Origin: an uncultured Eubacteriales bacterium
GTDB lineage: Bacteria; Bacillota; Clostridia; Oscillospirales; Acutalibacteraceae
Assembly: GCA_900316345.1 (NCBI GenBank)
Contig: ONCR01000004.1
Span: forward strand, 1 to 51,128
Length of the DNA stretch: 51,128 nucleotides
Direction: 5' to 3'
How positions within the stretch are numbered: the stretch's first letter is position 1; each line of letters begins with the position of its first letter. Below the pieces are notes generated by a model. It had not been told where the DNA came from. It saw only the letters and a list, made by a program, of their open reading frames with translations, and did no database searches. Position numbers and translations under genes: made by a program. Of this stretch, positions 17,389 to 33,887 are shown piece by piece.

Positions 17389-17895
17389 ATGGAACAAAAA
17401 AGAAGAAAAGCAACAAGGCTTAAGGGATTTGACTATTCCCAAAACGGCGCTTATTTTATAACTATTTGCGTTAAGGATATGAAATGTGTATTGGCTGAAA
17501 TCGTAGGGGCTGACGACCTCGGCAGCCCGTTAATTTTTCTTACAGATTACGGAATGATTGCTGAGAAAAACATAGTTAAAATGAACAGCATATACGATAA
17601 TATAGCTGTTGATAATTATATTATCATGCCGAACCACATTCATTTATTAGTAAGCATATCAAACGAAAAAAGCGCAACGTACGGGGCGCCGAGGTCGTCG
17701 CCCCCTACAAATGCACTTTCAAGATTTGTTACCGCATTTAAAAAATATACAAGTAAAGAAATCGGAACAAATATTTGGCAAAGGGGTTTTCACGACCATA
17801 TTATCAGAAACGAAAATGATTACTTAACAAGGTGGCAATATATAGATGAAAACCCGAAAAAATGGTTATTAGGCAAAGATAAATATTATGCATAA
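17389..17895 (+). CDS. REP-associated tyrosine transposase (RAYT), Y1/IS200-like
   Basis: A 168-residue single-domain Y1 transposase. The HUH metal-binding motif lies in NYIIMPNHIHLLV (about residues 77-89), and the C-terminal YIDENPKKWLL carries the Tyr that cuts DNA. The N-terminal RLKGFDYSQNGAYFITICVKD is typical of RAYTs. Such proteins act on REP hairpins footed by GTAG. Two such hairpins lie inside this frame (17503-17528 and 17683-17708) and encode residues about 39-47 and 99-107. No ribosome site precedes the ATG, which follows the dehydrogenase stop by one base, so expression may depend on reinitiation. A strong terminator follows. Confidence 0.88.
   Translation: MEQKRRKATRLKGFDYSQNGAYFITICVKDMKCVLAEIVGADDLGSPLIFLTDYGMIAEKNIVKMNSIYDNIAVDNYIIMPNHIHLLVSISNEKSATYGAPRSSPPTNALSRFVTAFKKYTSKEIGTNIWQRGFHDHIIRNENDYLTRWQYIDENPKKWLLGKDKYYA
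17503..17528 (+). repeat. REP hairpin, family A, copy 1 (inside RAYT 1)
   Basis: GTAG foot at 17503-17506, stem GGGCTG/CAGCCC and a 10-base loop that reads CCGAGGTCGT on the other strand. It is in frame within the transposase gene and inverted relative to copy 2. Confidence 0.75.
17683..17708 (-). repeat. REP hairpin, family A, copy 2 (inside RAYT 1)
   Basis: Stem GGGGCG/CGCCCC around the loop CCGAGGTCGT, with the CTAC foot (GTAG on the minus strand) at 17705-17708. Compared with copy 1 the loop is identical while both stem arms change together. Confidence 0.75.
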
Positions 17896-17928
17896 AAAGA
17901 GGAGGGCTTGGGGCGCCCTCCTCTTTTT
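17894..17928. terminator. Strong bidirectional terminator
   Basis: A 14-bp perfect stem (17894-17907 with 17915-17928) with A-run and T-run on the outside. It serves the RAYT gene rightward and the beta-helix gene leftward. Confidence 0.88.
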
Positions 17929-17929
17929 C

Positions 17930-20071
17930 TTATTTCCAGCTGCGGGCACGTTTTCCGCTCTTGGTGATTTTGTTTTTGCTGTCCTTTTTAATCTGTTTTT
18001 TTGTTGAATTAATGCCGTAACGCTTACTTGATTTTATGGTATTATTTGTTATAACAATCTTATTTGATTTAACAATATTAATACCGTCGCGCTTTTGGGT
18101 TACAAACTGGTTTTTATCAATTTTTGCGCTGTCAGCCTTTTCAAGCTTAACGGCATCGCTTGAGCAGGTTGTTGATTTATTTGAAACAATCTTTGCCGAC
18201 TTTGAAGCCTTAAGGTTTACTGCTGTTCTGCACTTCTTAACTTTATTTTTCGTTATGTTAAGCGAAGCGCTGCTTTCAGCAAGAACGGCGTCGCGCGCAG
18301 AGCTGTTTATAACGTTTGACAAAACCTTTGTTTTCTTTGCGGAAACGAGGTGAATACCGTCCCTGCCAACGCCGGTTATAGTGTTGGTATTAAGCGTATT
18401 TGAAGCGGAGCTTTCAACCTTAATGCCGTCCTTCTTGGGTTTGGAAACCGTATTTTTATAAACGGTATTTGAATTAGAGCCCTCAAGAAGGTTGATGCCG
18501 AACATATCGCTGTCATAGCCGCCCTTCGGCGTAGTGTTATAAATCTTATTTTCACTTAAGGTGTTGCTGATGCTTGCGTTAAGGCGAATACCGTCGCCCG
18601 TTCCGCCGCTCTTTTTCTTTGTTAAGTTACAGGTAATCGTATTATTTGTAACAGTATTCTTTGCAGCGCCCTGAAGCCAGATTCCGTATGCAGGACAGTT
18701 TATGGTTATGGTATTCTTTGTAACCGTAACACCTGAAACTCTGAAATCGCCCTCGGGGCAAACGTAATTCTTACCCTTCTGCTTTTGAATCGCCTTGCTC
18801 TGTTCGGCGGTAAACTGCTCGCCGTAAAGCTGAATTCCGTAGCATGTGTTAACAAAATCTTCTTTATAACCCGGGCAGATTGTAATAGTATTATTTTCTA
18901 TTCTGCCGTTCATAATGATATAAGAAGTCTGCTTAACATAGGCCTTTGCTCTCGGTTTATAAAAATTGCTGTGAGAGCCGTCAACGGTTCTGAAAAGAAT
19001 GCCTGCGCCGCAGTTGGTTATTTTATTACCGCTTACAACGCTGTTCTTATAATTTGAGCATATAATTGCATAGCCTTCAATGTTTTCAAAGGTGTTATTT
19101 GTAATTTTAATATTATCAAACAGCGAGGTTGCAACGGTTGAATGAGTACCTACGCCCCTCTTCAGGTTTTTGAAGGTGCAGTTTGTAACGGTAATATTAC
19201 GGCTTATTGTTTCATCGCCGTCGGGGTTATAGTTGCTGAAATGCTCGGGCACCGCAGCGTCTATCTGAAGCGCTTCAATGTTGCTGTTGCCGCCCCACGG
19301 GCCTGCGAAATTAAGGAACTTGCAGTTTTTAAAGGTTACGTTTTCGCTCGCCGCAAATTCAACATAGTGCTTTTGAGCAACGTTGGTCATCGTTACGCCG
19401 TCCATTGTAACACCGCTTAAATGGCCGAACTTGAATATTGCCTGAGTTTTTCCGCCGCCGTCAAGCGTACCGCCGATAAACGAAACATTTCCTCCGGCAG
19501 TATAACCCGGGTATCCCTTGCCGTCGTTGGCGTTTGTAAATTCCGCCTTTTTTGCAAAGCGGAACATCGGGCTGTCCTTGGCGTCAGTATCGTTATGTAT
19601 GAGTTTAACGCCTTCGGTTAAATCCAGAATTGTATTTGAATAAATGTGAACCTGGCTTGTTGTATAGTAAGTACCCGAGGTTGTAAACTTAACTCTGTAG
19701 GTTTTGCCGTCGTTCGCATCCCTTATGCTTTTGAAAGCGCTTTCAAGCTCCTCGGTAACATCAGCGCCCTCAGCTGCTTTAATATACAAAATTTCCTCGC
19801 TGTCCTGCGAAGGGTCTTCACCGGCAGGCTCCGATGTGTTTTCCGTAACATCTTCGCTTGTATCTTCCGTTACGTTTTCACTTGTGTTTTCCGTAACGTT
19901 TTCGGTTATGTTTTCACTTGTGTTTTCGCTTGTATCTTCTGTTACGTTTTCGCTTGAAGAATTTGTTGTTAATTCCTCAATAACATCATCGGCTAAAGCG
20001 CTTAAAGACATAGCGGAAATAACTATGACGAAAGCTATTAATACCGATAAAGCCTTTTTTAAGTTGTTCAT
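17930..20071 (-). CDS. Secreted right-handed parallel beta-helix protein
   Basis: A 713-residue exported protein. A signal peptide (about residues 5-27, ending SALADD) is followed by an acidic low-complexity tract of TSEN/VTE units (about 41-81). Residues about 95-690 form many beta-helix coils recognisable as recurring N-x-I/V-x-x-N-x-I motifs (NITVTNCTFKNL, ITNNTFENI and similar), as in pectate-lyase-like and NosD-like folds. The C-terminus is basic, with no LPXTG motif. Such proteins bind or cleave polysaccharides, but no catalytic set can be assigned. AAGGTGA overlaps the stop of the upstream kinase gene 11 bases away, so both belong to one operon. Confidence 0.8.
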   Translation of the reverse strand: MNNLKKALSVLIAFVIVISAMSLSALADDVIEELTTNSSSENVTEDTSENTSENITENVTENTSENVTEDTSEDVTENTSEPAGEDPSQDSEEILYIKAAEGADVTEELESAFKSIRDANDGKTYRVKFTTSGTYYTTSQVHIYSNTILDLTEGVKLIHNDTDAKDSPMFRFAKKAEFTNANDGKGYPGYTAGGNVSFIGGTLDGGGKTQAIFKFGHLSGVTMDGVTMTNVAQKHYVEFAASENVTFKNCKFLNFAGPWGGNSNIEALQIDAAVPEHFSNYNPDGDETISRNITVTNCTFKNLKRGVGTHSTVATSLFDNIKITNNTFENIEGYAIICSNYKNSVVSGNKITNCGAGILFRTVDGSHSNFYKPRAKAYVKQTSYIIMNGRIENNTITICPGYKEDFVNTCYGIQLYGEQFTAEQSKAIQKQKGKNYVCPEGDFRVSGVTVTKNTITINCPAYGIWLQGAAKNTVTNNTITCNLTKKKSGGTGDGIRLNASISNTLSENKIYNTTPKGGYDSDMFGINLLEGSNSNTVYKNTVSKPKKDGIKVESSASNTLNTNTITGVGRDGIHLVSAKKTKVLSNVINSSARDAVLAESSASLNITKNKVKKCRTAVNLKASKSAKIVSNKSTTCSSDAVKLEKADSAKIDKNQFVTQKRDGINIVKSNKIVITNNTIKSSKRYGINSTKKQIKKDSKNKITKSGKRARSWK
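19829..19951 (-). repeat. Minisatellite encoding TSEN/VTE low-complexity tract
   Basis: Imperfect 12- and 24-base units encode alternating ENTSEN, ENVTED and ENITEN blocks just after the signal peptide of the beta-helix protein. Length changes in units of 12 would keep the frame. Confidence 0.7.
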
Positions 20072-20082
20072 ATTATTTCACC

Positions 20083-21699
20083 TTACCCGTTAAGAATTTC
20101 AAAGTTCTTTTTATTACACTTATAGAGATTCTTGAACACCTCAAAGTTTCTTTCGTAAACAGCTTTATTGGCCGGATTCGGTTTATAGGTCATCTTTGCG
20201 GGGATAAGCTTTTTAACGTCCTTCATTGAAGGAATTAAGCCCATACCTACAACTATACAAGCCGCCGCGCCTACTGCGCCGATATTCTGGGGTGAATCAA
20301 CAACCTCAATATTTTTTTGAAGAATATCCGCAAGAATCTGACAGGTAGCCTCGCCGAGAGCGCCGCCGCCGCAGAAGCGGATTGTGTCATTAATATGAAC
20401 CTTCTTATTCTGCCTTTCAAGCATCCACTTAAGGTGGAAACAGATACCCTCAACAACGGAACGGATAAGCTCCGTTTTACCCGTTTCAAGCTTAATGTTG
20501 AAGAACATACCTGCGGCGTTCGGGTCCTCAAACGGACAGCGGTTGCCGTGGAGCCAAGGCGTAAATATAACGCCGCCCGAGCCGGGCTCCGCTCTGCCGA
20601 TAACCTCTTCAAGATAATCGTAAAGGTTAAATTCAAAGGATTCGTAGCTATAAACATTTTCAGTAGGGTGAGACTGAAGATAAACGCCTATTTCATCAAG
20701 AGCAAGGTGGTCTTTTACCCAGCCTACGCATTTATTTGAGGTTTCAAGCTCGCCGAAGTAGTTATAAGCAGTCGGGTCTGCGCCGACGATTGAAGCCATC
20801 ATCGCGCCTGCGTCAACCATCTGTTTTTCAACAACTGTTCCAACCCAGCCTGAAGTTCCCGAATAAATATGGGTATCGCCAACCTCGACCGCGCCGGTAC
20901 CTACGCCGATAAGCGAAGCGTCGCCGCCGCCGCCGTATACTGCCGTTCCGGGGGCAAGGCCGAGCTCTTTTGCGGCTTTTTCGGTTACCTCGCCTACTTT
21001 TTCGGTTGACGCTTTGATTTCGGGCATATGCTCAATTTTTACGCCAACCATATCGCAAATAGGCTTGCACCATCCCTCGTGGCCCTTTCTTGTATCGTAA
21101 AGAAGGGTTCCGAAAGCGGAATCGTTAGTCATAACGAATTCGCCGCTTGCACGGCAGATTAAATATTCCTTAATATCAAGCCACTTATAAATCTTCTTGA
21201 AGTTTTCGGGCTCATGAGCTTCAACCCATTTATATTTCCAGATAGGGTCTTTAACGGAAGATGATACCGCGCCCGTATAGCGAAGATATTTAAGCAGCTT
21301 TGTAACCTCTGCGCCTGCAACCTGAACGCCGTAAGCAATTCCCTTTTTCAGCTCTTCCCTTGCACGCTGGTCCATATAGGTCATCGGGCGGCGGATGCAT
21401 TTGCCCTCCTTGTCAACAAGAACAAGGCCCTGCATTGCACTGCAGAAGGAAATACCCTCAATCTGCTCCTTTTGGATATCGGGCCTCTTTTTAAATACAA
21501 CCTGGGTTGTAATGCACATCGCTTTCCACCACTCATCGGCGTCCTGCTCTGCGCCGCCGTCAACGCCTGTTTCTTCGTTAACGTAAAGCTTATATCCCTC
21601 TGTTGCGGAAGCGAGAATTTTTATTTCCTTATCAACCTCAATAAGGCATGTTTTAATTCCCGTTGTTCCGATGTCATAGGTGATTACAAATTTGCTCAT
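20083..21699 (-). CDS. FGGY-family carbohydrate kinase
   Basis: A 538-residue sugar kinase of the FGGY family (xylulokinase, glycerol kinase and relatives). The N-terminal phosphate site VITYDIGTTGIKT, the MTYMDQRA stretch, the YGGGGDASLIGVGTGAVEVGDTHIYSGTSGWVG block and the C-terminal RFCGGGALGEATCQILADIL with VGAAACIVVGMG support this. The ATG at 21699 has GAGAGG 10 bases upstream; a TTG nine bases earlier is too near. The gene lies 17 bases behind tetR and feeds, by context, the aldolase and aminotransferase opposite. The true substrate is unknown. Confidence 0.88.
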   Translation of the reverse strand: MSKFVITYDIGTTGIKTCLIEVDKEIKILASATEGYKLYVNEETGVDGGAEQDADEWWKAMCITTQVVFKKRPDIQKEQIEGISFCSAMQGLVLVDKEGKCIRRPMTYMDQRAREELKKGIAYGVQVAGAEVTKLLKYLRYTGAVSSSVKDPIWKYKWVEAHEPENFKKIYKWLDIKEYLICRASGEFVMTNDSAFGTLLYDTRKGHEGWCKPICDMVGVKIEHMPEIKASTEKVGEVTEKAAKELGLAPGTAVYGGGGDASLIGVGTGAVEVGDTHIYSGTSGWVGTVVEKQMVDAGAMMASIVGADPTAYNYFGELETSNKCVGWVKDHLALDEIGVYLQSHPTENVYSYESFEFNLYDYLEEVIGRAEPGSGGVIFTPWLHGNRCPFEDPNAAGMFFNIKLETGKTELIRSVVEGICFHLKWMLERQNKKVHINDTIRFCGGGALGEATCQILADILQKNIEVVDSPQNIGAVGAAACIVVGMGLIPSMKDVKKLIPAKMTYKPNPANKAVYERNFEVFKNLYKCNKKNFEILNG

Positions 21700-21716
21700 A
21701 TGTATCAATCCTCTCT

Positions 21717-22376
21717 TTATTTTTCAAAAGTAAATGCGCTTTCAATGAACTTAAGAAGCTGATTTACAACCTGTTCGTCGTCCATCTCATCTACATTGAT
21801 TCCGGTATAAATTTCAAAACGGTCACGGTAGTAATCGCAGGTATAGGAAAACTGAAGCGACATAAGTAGGTTATCAAGAAAGAAGGCGAAAAGCCGAGGG
21901 TCCAAATCCTGCCTAACGTCGTTATTTGCAAAAGCCTGCGCGATTGAGGTTATATATTTTCGGCTTGTTGAAAACTCAATTTCCTCTGACAGCGCCTTGG
22001 CGAGCTTCGGATTTTTTTCGCTTGTAATTTCGTTATAAAGCCTTATGTAGTTGGCATTTTTCTTTGAATGGTAACAGGTTGTTCTTATAACCTTTTCGGC
22101 CTTAATAAGAAGCTTATCGTCGCTTTTCATAATTTCATCAAGCGCGTCGTTAAGAATGGTACAGCCGCGCTGAATGCAGGTTAAAAACAAATCCTCTTTA
22201 GTTGCAAAATACTTATACATAAGCCCTATGCTTATGCCTGATTTTTTAGCGATAACGTTTATATTTGCATTTTCAAAGCCGTTATTTGAAAACTCCTCAA
22301 TACCGACCTCGAGGATTTTTTCTTTCCTTTCATCAGTGGCGCGTTCAAAGGCTTCCTTGTATCTTTTCTCTATCAT
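21717..22376 (-). CDS. TetR/AcrR-family transcriptional regulator
   Basis: A 219-residue regulator with an N-terminal helix-turn-helix (about residues 18-62: KILEVGIEEFSNNGFENANINVIAKKSGISIGLMYKYF) typical of TetR proteins and a helical ligand-binding domain. It heads the leftward kinase/beta-helix operon and faces the aminotransferase-aldolase operon. Two 16-bp palindromes downstream of the facing promoter are its likely operators. No clear ribosome site precedes the ATG, and a long inverted repeat sits in its leader, suggesting low expression. Confidence 0.9.
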   Translation of the reverse strand: MIEKRYKEAFERATDERKEKILEVGIEEFSNNGFENANINVIAKKSGISIGLMYKYFATKEDLFLTCIQRGCTILNDALDEIMKSDDKLLIKAEKVIRTTCYHSKKNANYIRLYNEITSEKNPKLAKALSEEIEFSTSRKYITSIAQAFANNDVRQDLDPRLFAFFLDNLLMSLQFSYTCDYYRDRFEIYTGINVDEMDDEQVVNQLLKFIESAFTFEK

Positions 22377-22383
22377 AATGTAT

Positions 22384-22436
22384 TTTTGTAGGGTTGCACA
22401 AACTAAGCGCTTGTTATTTGTTTAAAACCTACAAAA
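22384..22436 (-). repeat. Inverted repeat in the tetR leader
   Basis: TTTTGTAGG (22384-22392) and CCTACAAAA (22428-22436) form a perfect 9-bp inverted repeat enclosing a further near-symmetrical ACAAA...AAGCGCTT...TTTGT segment. It could fold in the tetR mRNA leader or serve as a protein site. Confidence 0.5.
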
Positions 22437-22527
22437 CTCCTTCGGTGAGCATTAATTCACTAACAATATACTAACATTTATCGCTTTTTTTTGCAATAAA
22501 AATAAACAAAAATTTTTAAAATATCAT

Positions 22528-22555
22528 TTGACAAATCGTAAAAAAGTGATATACT
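22528..22555 (+). promoter_or_regulatory. Strong promoter of the aminotransferase-aldolase operon
   Basis: Consensus TTGACA (22528-22533), 16-base spacer and TATACT (22550-22555). Transcription would start near 22562, just before the two palindromic operators. Confidence 0.7.
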
Positions 22556-22570
22556 TAAAGTGCAAATATA

Positions 22571-22612
22571 GTGAGTGGTGGCTCACGCAATAAATGGTGA
22601 GCGACGGCTCAC
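22571..22612 (+). promoter_or_regulatory. Two tandem 16-bp palindromic operators, likely TetR sites
   Basis: GTGAGTGGTGGCTCAC (22571-22586) and GTGAGCGACGGCTCAC (22597-22612) share GTGAG...GGCTCAC arms and are spaced 26 bases centre to centre. They lie directly downstream of a strong promoter and next to a tetR gene, where bound repressor would block RNA polymerase. Confidence 0.7.
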
Positions 22613-22634
22613 TAAATCACAAGGAGGAATAATT

Positions 22635-24128
22635 ATGGATACAAGATTTGCTATCTCCGAGTATCCCAACGCTGCGGCTATAACAGCACAGCTTGACGCA
22701 CTCATCAAAAAACCGATTTATTCAATCAACAGAGATGCTCTTAAAAAATATGTTGACGAGTATTTCGGCAAAAAATGCGCTAAATCCAAGGAAATGATTG
22801 AAGAAGCTAAAAACATCATTCCCGGCGGTGTTCAGCACAACCTTGCATTTAACTACCCCTTCCCGATTGTTATGGTTAAGGCTAAGGGCAACAAGCTTTA
22901 CGATATTGACGGAAACGAATATTTCGACTTCCTTCAGGCAGGCGGCCCTACAATTATCGGCTCAAACGATGACGTTGTAAAAGAGAAGGTTAAGGAATTA
23001 CTTGACGACTGCGGTCCGTCAACAGGTCTTTTCCACCCCTACGAATACAAGCTTGCTAAAAAAATCAGCGAATGTGTTCCTTCAGTAGAAATGTTCCGTA
23101 TGCTCGGTTCGGGTACTGAGGCTTGTATGTGCGCTGTTCGTGTTGCAAGACTTGCAACAGGCCATAAGAACATCATCAAGATGGGCGGCGCTTACCACGG
23201 CTGGTCAGATCAGCTTGCGTGGGGTATGCGTGTTCCCGGAACGCTTAATACACAGTCTCACGGTGTTCCGCTTTTCGTTTTCAAGCACACTCAGGAATTC
23301 TTCCCCAACGACCTTAAGTCGCTTGAAATGAAGCTTAAGATTAACAAATTCCGCGGCGGCACTGCTGCTGTATTCATTGAGCCCTGCGGCCCCGAATCGG
23401 CAACACGTCCCGTTGATAAGGACTTCCCGAAGGGTGTTCAGGCTCTTTGCCGCAAGTACGGCGCTCTCCTTGTTTCAGACGAGGTTGTTACAGGCTTCCG
23501 TATCGGTTTATCAGGCGCTCAGGGTTATTACGGATATGACCCGGATATCACCATCTTCGGTAAGATTATCGCCGGCGGTTATCCCGGTGCAGGCGGAATC
23601 GGCGGCCACAAAGAAGTTATGAAGTATCTCGGCGCAGGTCTTGACAAGGCTGAAGGCAAGAAGATTCACAAGGCTATGTGCGGCGGTACAATGGCTGCTA
23701 CGCCAATTTCATGCGTTGCAGGTTACACCGTTATCTGCGAAATCGAAAAGCGAAATGCTTGCCAGGTAGCAGGAAGAATGGCTGACAGACTTACAAAGGG
23801 TATCAACGAAAGCATTAAGAAGTATGACCTTCCGTTCGTATGCTATAACGTTGGCTCAATCTGCCACCTTCACACTGTTGCTACAATGCAGTTCAGAATT
23901 AACTGGAAGAAGATTTGGGAGGTACCGTCAGTTCTTAAGCAGACCGGTATCCGTCAGAAGGAAATGCAGTATATGGGCGCTGCTTACATGGCTGAAGGCC
24001 TTGTAACTCTTGCAGGCTCACGTCTTTACACCTCAAGCGCTTATACCGAAGAGGATATCGATGAATGCATCCGTCGCTTTGACAAGGTTCTTTCTCAGTG
24101 CGAAAGAATTACGGAATACGATAAATAA
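22635..24128 (+). CDS. Class III PLP aminotransferase, glutamate-1-semialdehyde-aminomutase-like
   Basis: A 497-residue fold-type I PLP enzyme. Family features are IIPGGVQHNL, YDIDGNEYFDF, GSGTEACMCAVRVAR, GGAYHGWSD, the Asp in LLVSDEVVTGFR, and the PLP lysine in FGKIIAGGYPGAG. The sequence is closest in style to GSA aminomutases and amino-sugar aminotransferases, but no other haem genes are here, so a catabolic role with the aldolase and kinase is more likely. The N-terminus (about 55 residues) is longer than in HemL. The ATG at 22635 follows AAGGAGG; it is the first gene of the operator-controlled operon. Confidence 0.88.
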   Translation: MDTRFAISEYPNAAAITAQLDALIKKPIYSINRDALKKYVDEYFGKKCAKSKEMIEEAKNIIPGGVQHNLAFNYPFPIVMVKAKGNKLYDIDGNEYFDFLQAGGPTIIGSNDDVVKEKVKELLDDCGPSTGLFHPYEYKLAKKISECVPSVEMFRMLGSGTEACMCAVRVARLATGHKNIIKMGGAYHGWSDQLAWGMRVPGTLNTQSHGVPLFVFKHTQEFFPNDLKSLEMKLKINKFRGGTAAVFIEPCGPESATRPVDKDFPKGVQALCRKYGALLVSDEVVTGFRIGLSGAQGYYGYDPDITIFGKIIAGGYPGAGGIGGHKEVMKYLGAGLDKAEGKKIHKAMCGGTMAATPISCVAGYTVICEIEKRNACQVAGRMADRLTKGINESIKKYDLPFVCYNVGSICHLHTVATMQFRINWKKIWEVPSVLKQTGIRQKEMQYMGAAYMAEGLVTLAGSRLYTSSAYTEEDIDECIRRFDKVLSQCERITEYDK

Positions 24129-24140
24129 AAAAATTAAGAG

Positions 24141-24187
24141 GGGTACAGAGTAATCCCCCCGACGGGAGGGCCTCTGTGCCCTCCCGT
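24141..24187 (+). other. Intercistronic RNA with two mutually exclusive stems
   Basis: A perfect 10-bp hairpin (24162-24171 with 24178-24187, 6-base loop) overlaps a second possible stem of GGGTACAGAG (24141-24150) with CTCTGTGCCC (24172-24181, one G-U). No T-run follows, so it is not a simple terminator; mRNA processing or coupling control between the two genes is possible. Confidence 0.55.
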
Positions 24188-24209
24188 AAATTATTACAGG
24201 AGATATAAT

Positions 24210-25427
24210 ATGGCTTACGAAATTGAAGAAGCTAAAAGATTAGTTGTTCAGGCAGGTCTTGACCTTATTAAAAAAGGCCTTATCGCCCGTACTTGGGGAA
24301 ATGTTTCAGCCCGTATTTCCGATACTCAGTTTGTTATCACTCCTTCGGGCAGAGCTTACGAGGATTTAACGCCGGATGAAATCGTTGTTGTTAACATCGA
24401 CGACTGTTCTTATGAAGGCGACATTAAACCCTCTTCCGAAAAAGGCGTTCACGCTGCGGCTTACCGCCATCATCCTACGGTTGACTTTGTTATTCACACT
24501 CACCAGAAGGCTGCCACAATCGTTTCAATTACCGGAATGGAAATCAGAAACGTATATCCCGAATTCAGAGACGTTCTCGGCGAGAAGGTTCCCTGCGCTG
24601 CATATGCTATGTCAACAACGGACAGCCTTCGCAAGAAGGTTGAGCGCTGCATCGAGATGAACCCGAGAGCTCGCGCAATTATGATGATGCATCACGGCAC
24701 GGTTTGCATGGGCGATTCATACGAGCACGCTTTCGCTCTTGCTGAAAACCTTGAAGCTTGCTGTGAAAAGGTAATTAAGGATAACTACCTTCGTCATTCC
24801 TGGGAAACGACTTACAGCGACGATAAAAAGCGCCAGTTCTTCCTTGATAAAAACGAAGCCGGCGATATGCCCTGCTGTATTCCCGACCTCGGCTCATCTA
24901 TCAGAAACGGCAACTATTTCACCCTCACCGTAGGCGATACAACGGTTGACGTTGATATTGAAACAGGCGTTGGAATTAACGGCCTTGCGCCGAAGATTGA
25001 AAAGCTTCACCGCGCTATCTATAACGCAGAGGACTGCACGATGATTAAACACCTTGCAACCCCCGACGTTGTAGCTGTTTCGTGCACGGGCGAAGGCATT
25101 ACTCCGATGATTGACGACTTTGCCCAGATTGTTGGCATTGACGTAAAGAACTGCCCGTGGATTGACGGCAGCACGGATGAATGCGCAAAGGAAATCGGCG
25201 AAGCAATTGATAACAGAAACGCTGTTCTTATTCAGGGCGCAGGCGCTCTTATTACGGGAAATACCGACGGCGATATGCAGGCGCTTGACATCATTATGGA
25301 TAAGCAGTGCCAGGCTATTATTGACGTTGACATTTTCAACCGCGCTCACTACGTTCCGAAGCTTGAATGCTTCCTTATGAGAACCGTTTACCTTGCAAAA
25401 TACAGCAAGAAAATCAACGAAAAATAA
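24210..25427 (+). CDS. Two-domain class II aldolase/adducin-like protein
   Basis: A 405-residue protein. Residues about 1-205 form a complete class II aldolase domain: ARTWGNVSARI, PSSEKGVHAAAY with the catalytic Glu, the zinc His pair in VIHTHQKAA and the third His region MMMHHGTVCMGD. Residues about 235-400 appear to be a second, degenerate copy: NRNAVLIQGAGALITGNTDGD aligns with the HHGTV region but has Gly-Ala in place of His-His. Class II aldolases cleave sugar phosphates such as fuculose-1-phosphate or ribulose-5-phosphate types. ACAGGAG lies 8 bases before the ATG. Confidence 0.85.
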   Translation: MAYEIEEAKRLVVQAGLDLIKKGLIARTWGNVSARISDTQFVITPSGRAYEDLTPDEIVVVNIDDCSYEGDIKPSSEKGVHAAAYRHHPTVDFVIHTHQKAATIVSITGMEIRNVYPEFRDVLGEKVPCAAYAMSTTDSLRKKVERCIEMNPRARAIMMMHHGTVCMGDSYEHAFALAENLEACCEKVIKDNYLRHSWETTYSDDKKRQFFLDKNEAGDMPCCIPDLGSSIRNGNYFTLTVGDTTVDVDIETGVGINGLAPKIEKLHRAIYNAEDCTMIKHLATPDVVAVSCTGEGITPMIDDFAQIVGIDVKNCPWIDGSTDECAKEIGEAIDNRNAVLIQGAGALITGNTDGDMQALDIIMDKQCQAIIDVDIFNRAHYVPKLECFLMRTVYLAKYSKKINEK

Positions 25428-25441
25428 ACTAATAATAATGA

Positions 25442-25472
25442 AAAGTAGAATGGCTTATTGCCATTCTACTTT
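25442..25472 (+). terminator. Terminator after the aldolase gene
   Basis: A 13-bp perfect stem (25442-25454 with 25460-25472) with a 5-base loop and flanking A and T stretches. It separates the catabolic operon from the second RAYT gene. Confidence 0.85.
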
Positions 25473-25492
25473 ATTTATGATAGTATTCTGTT

Positions 25493-25981
25493 ATGGAACA
25501 GTTACCTAAAAGAAAGCCTAATAGGTTAAAGAATTATGATTATTCTAAAAACGGCGCATATTTTATTACTTTATGCACCAAAGACAGAAAGCATATCTTG
25601 TCACAAATCACCGTAGGGACGAGCATTGCTCGTCCGCAGGAAATACATCTTACGGAAACAGGCGAAATCGTAGATAAATCAATAAGGGAAATTCCAAATC
25701 ATTATGAAGGCGTTTTTGTTGATAATTATGTTGTAATGCCCAATCATATTCACATGATAATCCGTATAGAAAGAAATGACGGACGAGCAATGCTCGTCCC
25801 TACGGTATCAAGGATTATACAACAGATGAAAGGCTATGCAACAAAACAAGCAGGTAAGCCGATTTGGCAAAACAAGGCATATGACCATATCATTCGGGAC
25901 GATTACGACTATATGACAAAATATCAGTACATTGATGATAACCCCGCAAAATGGCTTCTTAAACAGGATGAATACAATTGA
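25493..25981 (+). CDS. REP-associated tyrosine transposase (RAYT) 2
   Basis: A 162-residue Y1 transposase related to the one at 17.4 kb: RLKNYDYSKNGAYFITLCTKD at the N-terminus, the HUH motif in NYVVMPNHIHMII (about residues 79-91) and YIDDNPAKWLL at the C-terminus. It has its own pair of inverted GTAG-footed hairpins in frame (25613-25635 and 25781-25803), at the same protein positions as in RAYT 1 but of a different hairpin family. A third copy lies downstream at 26014. No ribosome site precedes the ATG. Confidence 0.88.
   Translation: MEQLPKRKPNRLKNYDYSKNGAYFITLCTKDRKHILSQITVGTSIARPQEIHLTETGEIVDKSIREIPNHYEGVFVDNYVVMPNHIHMIIRIERNDGRAMLVPTVSRIIQQMKGYATKQAGKPIWQNKAYDHIIRDDYDYMTKYQYIDDNPAKWLLKQDEYN
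25613..25635 (+). repeat. REP hairpin, family B, copy 1 (inside RAYT 2)
   Basis: GTAG foot followed by an 8-bp stem GGACGAGC/GCTCGTCC with ATT loop. It is in frame in the transposase gene. Confidence 0.8.
25781..25803 (-). repeat. REP hairpin, family B, copy 2 (inside RAYT 2)
   Basis: The same 8-bp stem with AAT loop and CTAC foot at 25800-25803, inverted relative to copy 1, also in frame. Confidence 0.8.
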
Positions 25982-26013
25982 AATAAACGCAATCTGATTG
26001 AACAAAGAATAAC

Positions 26014-26036
26014 GGACGAGCAATGCTCGTCCCTAC
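26014..26036 (-). repeat. REP hairpin, family B, copy 3 (downstream of RAYT 2)
   Basis: Identical stem and foot to copy 2, 33 bases after the transposase stop codon and not in a gene. Confidence 0.8.
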
Positions 26037-33694: not shown

Positions 33695-33720
33695 GTAGGG
33701 GACGACGACCCCGGCGTCCC
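33695..33720 (+). repeat. REP hairpin, family A, copy 3
   Basis: GTAG foot at 33695-33698, stem GGGACG/CGTCCC and a loop reading CCGGGGTCGT on the other strand, one change from the RAYT 1 copies. It lies outside any gene. Confidence 0.75.
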
Positions 33721-33862: not shown

Positions 33863-33887
33863 GGGGCGCCGAGTCGTCGCCCCCTAC
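33863..33887 (-). repeat. REP hairpin, family A, copy 4
   Basis: Stem GGGGCG/CGCCCC, loop CCGAGTCGT (one base shorter than copies 1 and 2) and CTAC foot at 33884-33887, inverted relative to copy 3. Confidence 0.75.

Follow-up and report, generated by a model that had tools for sequence, protein, structure and literature searches.

Paired REP hairpins within the reading frame of clostridial RAYT genes: a candidate cognate substrate that covaries with helix alpha3 of its transposase

Two genes for REP-associated tyrosine transposases (RAYTs) lie in a 51,128-nucleotide stretch of DNA (the window) from an uncultured Eubacteriales bacterium of the Acutalibacteraceae (GenBank assembly GCA_900316345.1, contig ONCR01000004.1), and each carries within its coding sequence two opposite-facing repetitive extragenic palindromic (REP) hairpins with a GTAG foot. 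Judging from sequence comparisons with relatives, we consider it likely that in this clade of RAYTs from gut-type bacteria the coding sequence holds the enzyme's own candidate cognate REP pair in the geometry of a REPIN (REP doublet forming hairpins), about 190-206 bp from foot to foot. Five lines of evidence lead to this reading: the fixed position and orientation of the hairpins, the matching of the two members of each pair, their conservation above that of the surrounding DNA, the restoration of pairing inside the individual hairpins, and covariation with helix alpha3 of the protein. The genes and their left (L) and right (R) hairpins are arranged as follows.

17389-17895, plus strand: RAYT gene 1, 168 amino acids (aa), with motifs NHIH, WQ and YIDENP and an AlphaFold model closest to TnpAREP (4er8)
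17503-17528, plus strand: L REP hairpin of gene 1, GTAG foot on the coding strand, encoding residues 39-47
17635-17643, plus strand: HUH codons of gene 1 (H83 I84 H85)
17683-17708, minus strand: R REP hairpin of gene 1, GTAG foot on the non-coding strand, encoding residues 99-107
17704-17763, plus strand: helix alpha3 of gene 1 (model residues 106-125), with the top hairpin-covarying positions 115, 116, 119, 120 and 122
25493-25981, plus strand: RAYT gene 2, 162 aa
25613-25635, plus strand: L REP hairpin of gene 2
25745-25753, plus strand: HUH codons of gene 2 (H85 I86 H87)
25781-25803, minus strand: R REP hairpin of gene 2

All four hairpins sit exactly where the initial annotation had placed them, in frame, foot-out and bracketing the HUH codons, with outer spans of 206 bp in gene 1 and 191 bp in gene 2. 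Its statement that the hairpin families differ between the two genes was likewise correct: the families are unlike each other, and within each gene L and R match (27/27 nt in gene 2; 80% identity over 35 nt in gene 1). When codons were shuffled synonymously, a GTAG hairpin scoring at least 18 appeared in 6 of 5000 shuffles of gene 1 and in 10 of 5000 of gene 2, and two such hairpins together in no shuffle of either gene. A chance origin of the hairpins was rejected on the basis of these shuffles and of a scan of all 256 tetranucleotide feet (see below).

What identifies the two window genes as RAYTs, if divergent ones, is their fold, their motifs and the REPs that accompany them; the curated scores fall short. 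The NF047646 model (REP_Tyr_transpos) scores them at 58.7 and 65.3 bits (E 5.6e-16 and 5.2e-18), below its 80-bit cut-off, and PF01797 gives 21.1 and 22.1 against a cut-off of 23, while a PHROGs search of the RAYT returned just a family of unknown function. Both proteins carry NHIH and WQ, the catalytic tyrosine (Y151) and a Y---NP motif reading YIDENP or YIDDNP, and the positions corresponding to GTAG contacts (W130, Q131, D136, H137 and R140) are invariant in our RAYT alignment. An AlphaFold model of gene 1, built from 48 sequences (mean pLDDT 84.8, pTM 0.80), has TnpAREP 4er8 as its best Foldseek match (E 1.8e-7, TM 0.58); in this model the residues encoded by L form the turn of a beta-hairpin, and those encoded by R lie nearly all in a low-confidence loop.

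Relatives were surveyed with an alignment of five hairpin-bearing genes as query, across 80 loci from a contig search, 60 genus, 150 family, 391 class and 398 phylum genomes, and 60 further stretches. Left out were 13 loci without an intact HUH open reading frame (ORF; L005, L007, L009, L038, L108-L113, L122, L135 and L229), the repeats L008 and L236, the dispersed-REP loci L147-L181 and a false positive (L087x, which is still counted in the scan of 256 feet and in the tree-change test below); duplicates with an identical core were merged. The initial annotation had proposed looking for GTAG-footed inverted hairpins at the same two positions in clostridial homologues, and both are present in 147 of the 232 distinct genes, with varied families; L alone occurs in 15, R alone in 32, neither in 36, and 2 genes are odd. 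L is found in the orientation seen in the window in 162 genes and never reversed, R in 179 and reversed in 6. Both hairpins were present in 5/5 genes of the genome itself, 58/79 of the contig search, 26/31 of the genus, 25/37 of the family, 33/54 of the class and 0/26 of the phylum sample. One of the 'neither' genes (L091) has a pair marginally below the score threshold, and more than one hairpin at a site occurs in 4/232. Among the 256 feet, none but GTAG, and TAGG and AGGG as the same foot read with a shift, exceeds 4 genes at L or 7 genes at R in the orientation of the window; in the opposite orientations the maximum for other feet is 36 genes at L and 29 genes at R, and we take these to be the same hairpins viewed from the opposite strand, with a conserved 3' flank. 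The start of L lies in frame 0 (GTA GGG, Val-Gly) in 95/98 genes of a first set, and the end of R in either of two frames (86/102 and 16/102). Finally, 175 of the genes that hold internal hairpins have 500 bp or more of sequence to either side; a GTAGG hairpin occurs in at least one flank of 44 of them and in both flanks of 1. The REP pair of this clade has in effect moved inside the gene, mostly in place of flanking REPs.

Within a gene the two hairpins resemble each other closely. In 144 of the 147 paired genes L and R are of equal length, with a mean identity of 92%, and 52 pairs are identical beyond the foot; between genes 47% of L/R combinations are of equal length, and those are 62% identical. 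In all, 134 distinct hairpin sequences occur among the 147 paired genes. Where R differs from L in the stem, 58 cells show a compensated change and 23 a broken pair (157 genes, 5 without a counterpart), and for L relative to R the figures are 52 and 18 (155 genes, 24 without a counterpart). These counts were made with no hairpin threshold, since a thresholded count (51 compensated against 3) was biased by the threshold itself. Such compensation implies that each hairpin is maintained as a hairpin, which a mere duplex between L and R would not demand.

Comparison across all pairs of the 147 paired genes, binned by protein identity, also sets the hairpins apart from their surroundings. At 60-70% protein identity (236 gene pairs), 84% agree in hairpin length, with 87% hairpin identity among these as against 66% for the other coding DNA; at 70-80% (47 pairs) all are of equal length and the hairpins are 93% identical, against 72% for other coding DNA, 52% for third codon positions and 39% for fourfold sites; and at 80-90% (9 pairs) the values are 98% and 82%. 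In an alignment of five species of the gene-1 group, L and R are invariant at 26/26 positions each and the rest at 180/407, and the differences between L and R are the same in all five species; these species were picked for identical hairpins, so that the alignment illustrates the pattern and is no test of it. The flanking bases are biased as well, with G right after L in 127/147 and C right before R in 122/147, and the REP may therefore reach one base further than the hairpin. We conclude that a cognate REP pair is probably embedded in the coding sequence and kept there at the DNA level by selection.

The identity of the hairpin also covaries with the protein. Hairpin distance correlates with protein distance most strongly for the segment after R (r 0.48, partial 0.42), less strongly for the core between L and R (0.29, partial 0.13) and not for the segment before L (0.04); the segments are unequal in length, and hairpins of unequal length were assigned a fixed distance of 0.6. 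When columns were ranked with overall protein distance removed, the top nine of 117 hairpin-covarying columns (119, 116, 120, 122, 115, 128, 132, 126 and 121 in gene 1 numbering) all fell within residues 110-132, a region that holds 21 of the 117 (hypergeometric p 3.6e-8). Among distantly related gene pairs (protein distance >0.45), 3.56 of the five helix positions agree if the hairpins are near-identical (n=179) and 0.60 if they are unlike (n=7129), a difference of 2.97 compared with a largest value of 0.91 in 2000 random five-column sets elsewhere, although these five positions were picked on the same data, which inflates the effect size and makes the clustering the sounder result. Linkage does not account for this covariation, since fourfold-site identity is flat across the region: 0.324 in the helix stretch and 0.315 elsewhere for pairs with the same hairpin, and 0.299 and 0.295 for pairs with unlike hairpins.

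The covarying positions fall on the modelled helix 106-125, right after the loop encoded by R. In an alignment to 4er8 that is weak in sequence (E 0.0018, offset 36), K82 of TnpAREP comes to stand at K118, amid the covarying columns; K82 belongs to the DNA-binding helix alpha3 and touches a bulge base of the REP (Corneloup et al. 2021, PMC8266576). The predicted helix alpha3 thus aligns with the REP-reading helix of Escherichia coli TnpAREP. This coevolution of hairpin and alpha3 lends support to the suggestion of self-binding at the DNA level made in the initial annotation, and, together with the recurrence of the pair and the dispersed matching REPs described next, it bears out in sequence comparison the idea that the gene appears to carry its target in its own reading frame.

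The same genome (G000; 2.13 Mb in 129 contigs, 95% complete) was searched for further RAYTs and REPs. With gene 2 as query, nine matching rows were obtained, which fall at seven places: both window genes and contigs C69, C43, C73, C126 and C75. An L/R pair is present in all five intact RAYT genes and in a frameshifted sixth (C126), the fragment on C75 retains its left hairpin, and four hairpin families occur among these places. The initial annotation had also asked about REP copies elsewhere in the genome, and dispersed copies were found for the families of gene 1, gene 2 and the C43 gene. The gene-1 palindrome occurs at 8 places, 6 of them outside gene 1, and that of gene 2 at 11 places, 5 of which are neither in nor beside a RAYT; 55 of 63 places with the REP pattern start GTAGGGGAGGG, as in the family of the C43 RAYT, and two of these lie inside the C43 gene. 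Around the REP places we counted 113 GTAGG-type hairpins in 35 stretches, 58 of them within ORFs of at least 80 aa, many of which are REP-rich. In other genomes, a loose REP pattern lay above its reversed control in seven of nine (for example G057, 254 vs 12, and G006, 91 vs 37) and not in G045 (5 vs 8) or G099 (3 vs 3), the latter being without a listed RAYT match in the family-genome search. Dispersed REP copies of the families in their own RAYT genes are visible in G036 and G006, among the matches listed.

Two further features of the window belong to the same families:

26014-26036, minus strand: third copy of the gene-2 REP, 33 bp past the stop codon
33695-33887: non-coding foot-out REP pair of the gene-1 family (33695-33720 on the plus strand and 33863-33887 on the minus strand), 193 bp outer span

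The non-coding pair is a REPIN-like unit whose geometry is almost that of the in-gene pair (193 vs 206 bp). It lies directly downstream of an ABC-transporter ATPase gene, and the stretch between its REPs does not look RAYT-like by eye.

Several arrays were noted alongside these copies. The C73 RAYT gene (L006 1289-2007) holds five tandem in-frame REPs at L with a 42-bp period and one at R, and four more tandem copies with a 45-bp period follow downstream; these are cases of array growth, at L inside a reading frame. Mosaic arrays of several REP families are present in contigs C4, C29, C58, C95 and C117 (L147, L151, L153, L154 and L156), often near contig ends, and those families in them that begin GTAGGGCAAGGTG, GTAGGGGCCGGTC and GTAGGGGCGATTC have no matching RAYT among the seven RAYT places of this genome. 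An array of another kind, a twelve-base repeat at 19835-19956 of the window, lies near the start of a 713-aa ORF (17930-20071, minus strand) and encodes a TSENVTEN-like low-complexity stretch.

The simplest competing explanation, closest to that of Quentin et al. 2018, is that REPs land in permissive loops of the RAYT protein, where they are tolerated and mean nothing. The modelled positions of the encoded residues, a beta-hairpin turn for L and a low-confidence loop for R, would fit this, as would the REPs inside many genes reported by Di Nocera et al. 2013 (PMC3733652), the in-frame tandem copies (five at L of the C73 gene, more than one per site in the few genes counted above) and the scatter of losses on the tree (28 changes vs 34.9 in shuffles, minimum 31). 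Insertion without meaning does not, however, predict that L is never and R hardly ever reversed, that L and R match, that hairpins are conserved above silent sites, or that they covary with alpha3. Other proteins of this genome speak against it too: of the nine non-RAYT ORFs of at least 150 aa that cover a REP, all of which were scanned, seven have no Pfam match, and in the other two (alpha-amylase and signal peptidase II) the REP lies ahead of the domain, near the predicted start. We therefore regard meaningless insertion as improbable.

A second possibility is that the hairpins are uniform through repeated copying of dispersed REPs into the genes, and that in-gene families match dispersed REPs and tandem copies reveal dynamic sites is what such homogenisation would produce. 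Against it stand the fixed frame and orientation, the identical L-R differences in the five gene-1-group species (chosen, as noted, for identical hairpins), the lack of unlike hairpins (>0.4) in gene pairs with a C-segment distance <0.35 and a core distance <0.4, and the covariation with alpha3, which homogenisation alone leaves unexplained. We consider it rather unlikely as the main cause, if somewhat less so than meaningless insertion.

A selected, cognate in-gene pair nevertheless has to be weighed against several observations. The pair is dispensable, given that 36/232 genes have neither hairpin and 15 (L) and 32 (R) a single one; in the phylum-wide sample 18/26 genes are without hairpins and 0/26 have the pair, so that outside the class single R hairpins and two double-footed hairpins occur without any pair; the survey query may favour hairpin-bearing relatives; the contrast at the five helix positions is inflated by their selection; and the copying of dispersed REPs back into genes could also keep hairpins uniform.

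The initial annotation had raised recognition at the level of mRNA as well as DNA, and this part was not borne out. Hairpins in the RAYT mRNA, or a long stem between L and R, might restrain translation or stability, and it is true that L has the sequence of a REP when transcribed into mRNA and that L and R are near-complementary. The foot of R, however, lies on the antisense strand, and where L and R have diverged, each hairpin has mostly restored its own pairing, at the cost of an L:R stem. In addition, read 5' to 3' along the REP strand, the outer seven pairs of R contain 24 G-T against 1 A-C cells (13 vs 1 distinct sequences) and those of L 24 against 2 (13 vs 2), with 75 (R) and 74 (L) other mismatches, although a single position in one type of hairpin supplies many of the G-T cells, so that their independence is limited. 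Since G-T on the REP strand of R would be A-C in the mRNA, the pairing of R points to folding of the GTAG-bearing DNA strand rather than of the mRNA, and control of the gene through its own mRNA seems highly improbable.

The initial annotation had further proposed that the two hairpin ends might bound a mobile core, and here the evidence is divided. We opened 20 regions, chosen by eye among broken matches of the genome searches, and in 12 of them the HUH stretch is missing and the sequences coding for the N- and C-terminal parts meet at or close to the two hairpin sites. A single hairpin footed at both ends remains in six of these relics (L298, L301, L305, L306, L307 and L311), four have no hairpin (L299, L302, L303 and L317) and two have remnants (L300 and L304); L313 lacks more than the HUH stretch, seven of the 20 are other fragments, and L112 is a further hairpin-free relic separate from the 20. 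The single hairpin with GTAG at both ends that replaces L-core-R in six relics is a possible origin of double-foot REPs, which according to Quentin et al. could come from central deletion of an inverted pair (PMC6006769); such an origin is seen here inside genes, and it needs no enzyme.

A solo core was found in one genome (G045 C32, L318 468-631). Its 164 bp start at the 3' edge of L and stop exactly at the CTAC of R, with the R hairpin included, are 100% identical to the RAYT of the same genome about 7 kb away, and lie behind another gene at the place of its expected terminator-like stem. A stretch of 76 bp of its left flank recurs, 96% identical, downstream of the intact G045 RAYT, which makes local rearrangement a possible origin. 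No second clear solo core was found among the 20 loci opened (some of them the same place) from a core search of 80 genus genomes. In another genome (G983, L358-L362) several contigs break off within the RAYT core or at the R hairpin, and this genome may hold more core copies.

These relics and the hairpin-edge boundaries of the solo core, together with the non-coding pair of 193 bp span in the window, are what one would expect if L-core-R were a REPIN excised and reinserted by the RAYT, the surrounding gene being its carrier. On the other hand, hairpin similarity tracks the C-terminal segment (partial r 0.42) over the core (0.13), albeit with segments that differ in length, the six double-foot relics are explicable by enzyme-free collapse between two near-palindromes, and the one solo core seen may stem from the rearrangement suggested by its shared flank. 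The shuffling of core cassettes between genes was rejected, as the core segment does not stand out in the comparison of hairpin with protein distances. What stands of the proposal is thus the existence of relics without the L-R stretch and of one solo core, which suggests that the L-core-R unit can be lost or moved; its mobilisation by the enzyme appears doubtful.

If the hairpins are the enzyme's own cognate pair, the RAYT would bind, and may cut, the hairpins of its own gene when the GTAG strand is single-stranded, for example at a replication fork. That the enzyme acts on this pair in its own gene seems to us slightly short of an even chance. The most likely role of the internal pair would be to replace the flanking REPs of a classical REPtron, with enzyme and matching substrate kept genetically inseparable, so that the gene could be the seed of its REP family wherever it moved. 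As a side effect, loss of L-core-R would remove the active site and kill the gene. Taken further, and in our view with as little likelihood as the mobile core, the RAYT gene might be its own REPIN: an over-active enzyme would excise its own catalytic core as a self-limiting switch at the DNA level, the core occasionally relocating, and alpha3 and hairpin would form a readable code in which each gene records its own specificity.

REP recognition and the fidelity between RAYT and REP families are known from a handful of enzymes. The 147 pairs of protein and hairpin (134 distinct hairpins) can be read from sequence and already point to alpha3. They would also offer a clear case of selection at the DNA level on a recognition site within coding sequence, and a straightforward way for an enzyme that moves horizontally to remain coupled to its substrate.

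Comparison with known systems places these genes near, and apart from, several of them. The in-gene pair is like the REPIN of Bertels and Rainey 2011 (PMC3116915) in having two inverted REPs around a spacer, except that the spacer is here protein-coding and contains the HUH motif. Nunvar et al. 2010 (PMC2817692) describe RAYT ORFs as always flanked by two inverted REPs. The genes of this clade share with that classical REPtron, as presented there, a RAYT with two inverted REPs and the coevolution of REP and RAYT; in contrast, their REPs lie inside the reading frame, and both flanks carry them in just 1/175 genes. With respect to E. coli TnpAREP (4er8), residues W94, Q95, H101 and R104 align with W130, Q131, H137 and R140, whereas E100 is replaced by D136, overall identity is 22%, and the E. 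coli REPs flank the gene.

The closest counterparts in print are the subclass 2.4 genes of Quentin et al. 2018 (PMC6006769), the one source in the open PubMed Central (PMC) literature searched that reports REPs inside RAYT genes, and one of which the initial annotation was unaware. In the sections of that article drawn on here, in-frame REPs inside tnpAREP are described as unique to subclass 2.4 (group 4 of Bertels in its Table 1; consensus NH[IFV]H, WQ and YIxNNP), lying generally between HuH and Y and probably having little impact. Our genes resemble this subclass in their NHxH, WQ and Y---NP motifs, in-frame GTAG REPs and variable loop between HuH and W; NHIH and WQ agree with its consensus, and the Y motif, YIDENP or YIDDNP, departs from YIxNNP. 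The R site agrees with the position described between HuH and Y, and the L site before HuH is additional. Unlike subclass 2.4 as described in those sections, the genes of this clade have two fixed, opposite-facing sites around the HUH codons that match each other and covary with alpha3. No earlier report of the fixed pair, its orientation, matching and constraint, the alpha3 covariation, the replacement of flanking REPs or the relics was found in the open PMC literature, a scope that excludes supplementary figures S6 and S10 of Quentin et al. 2018, which may show some of these. REPs inside RAYT genes were thus already known; what is new is that here they are fixed, paired and coevolving with the enzyme, and that they mostly replace the REPs that would otherwise flank the gene.

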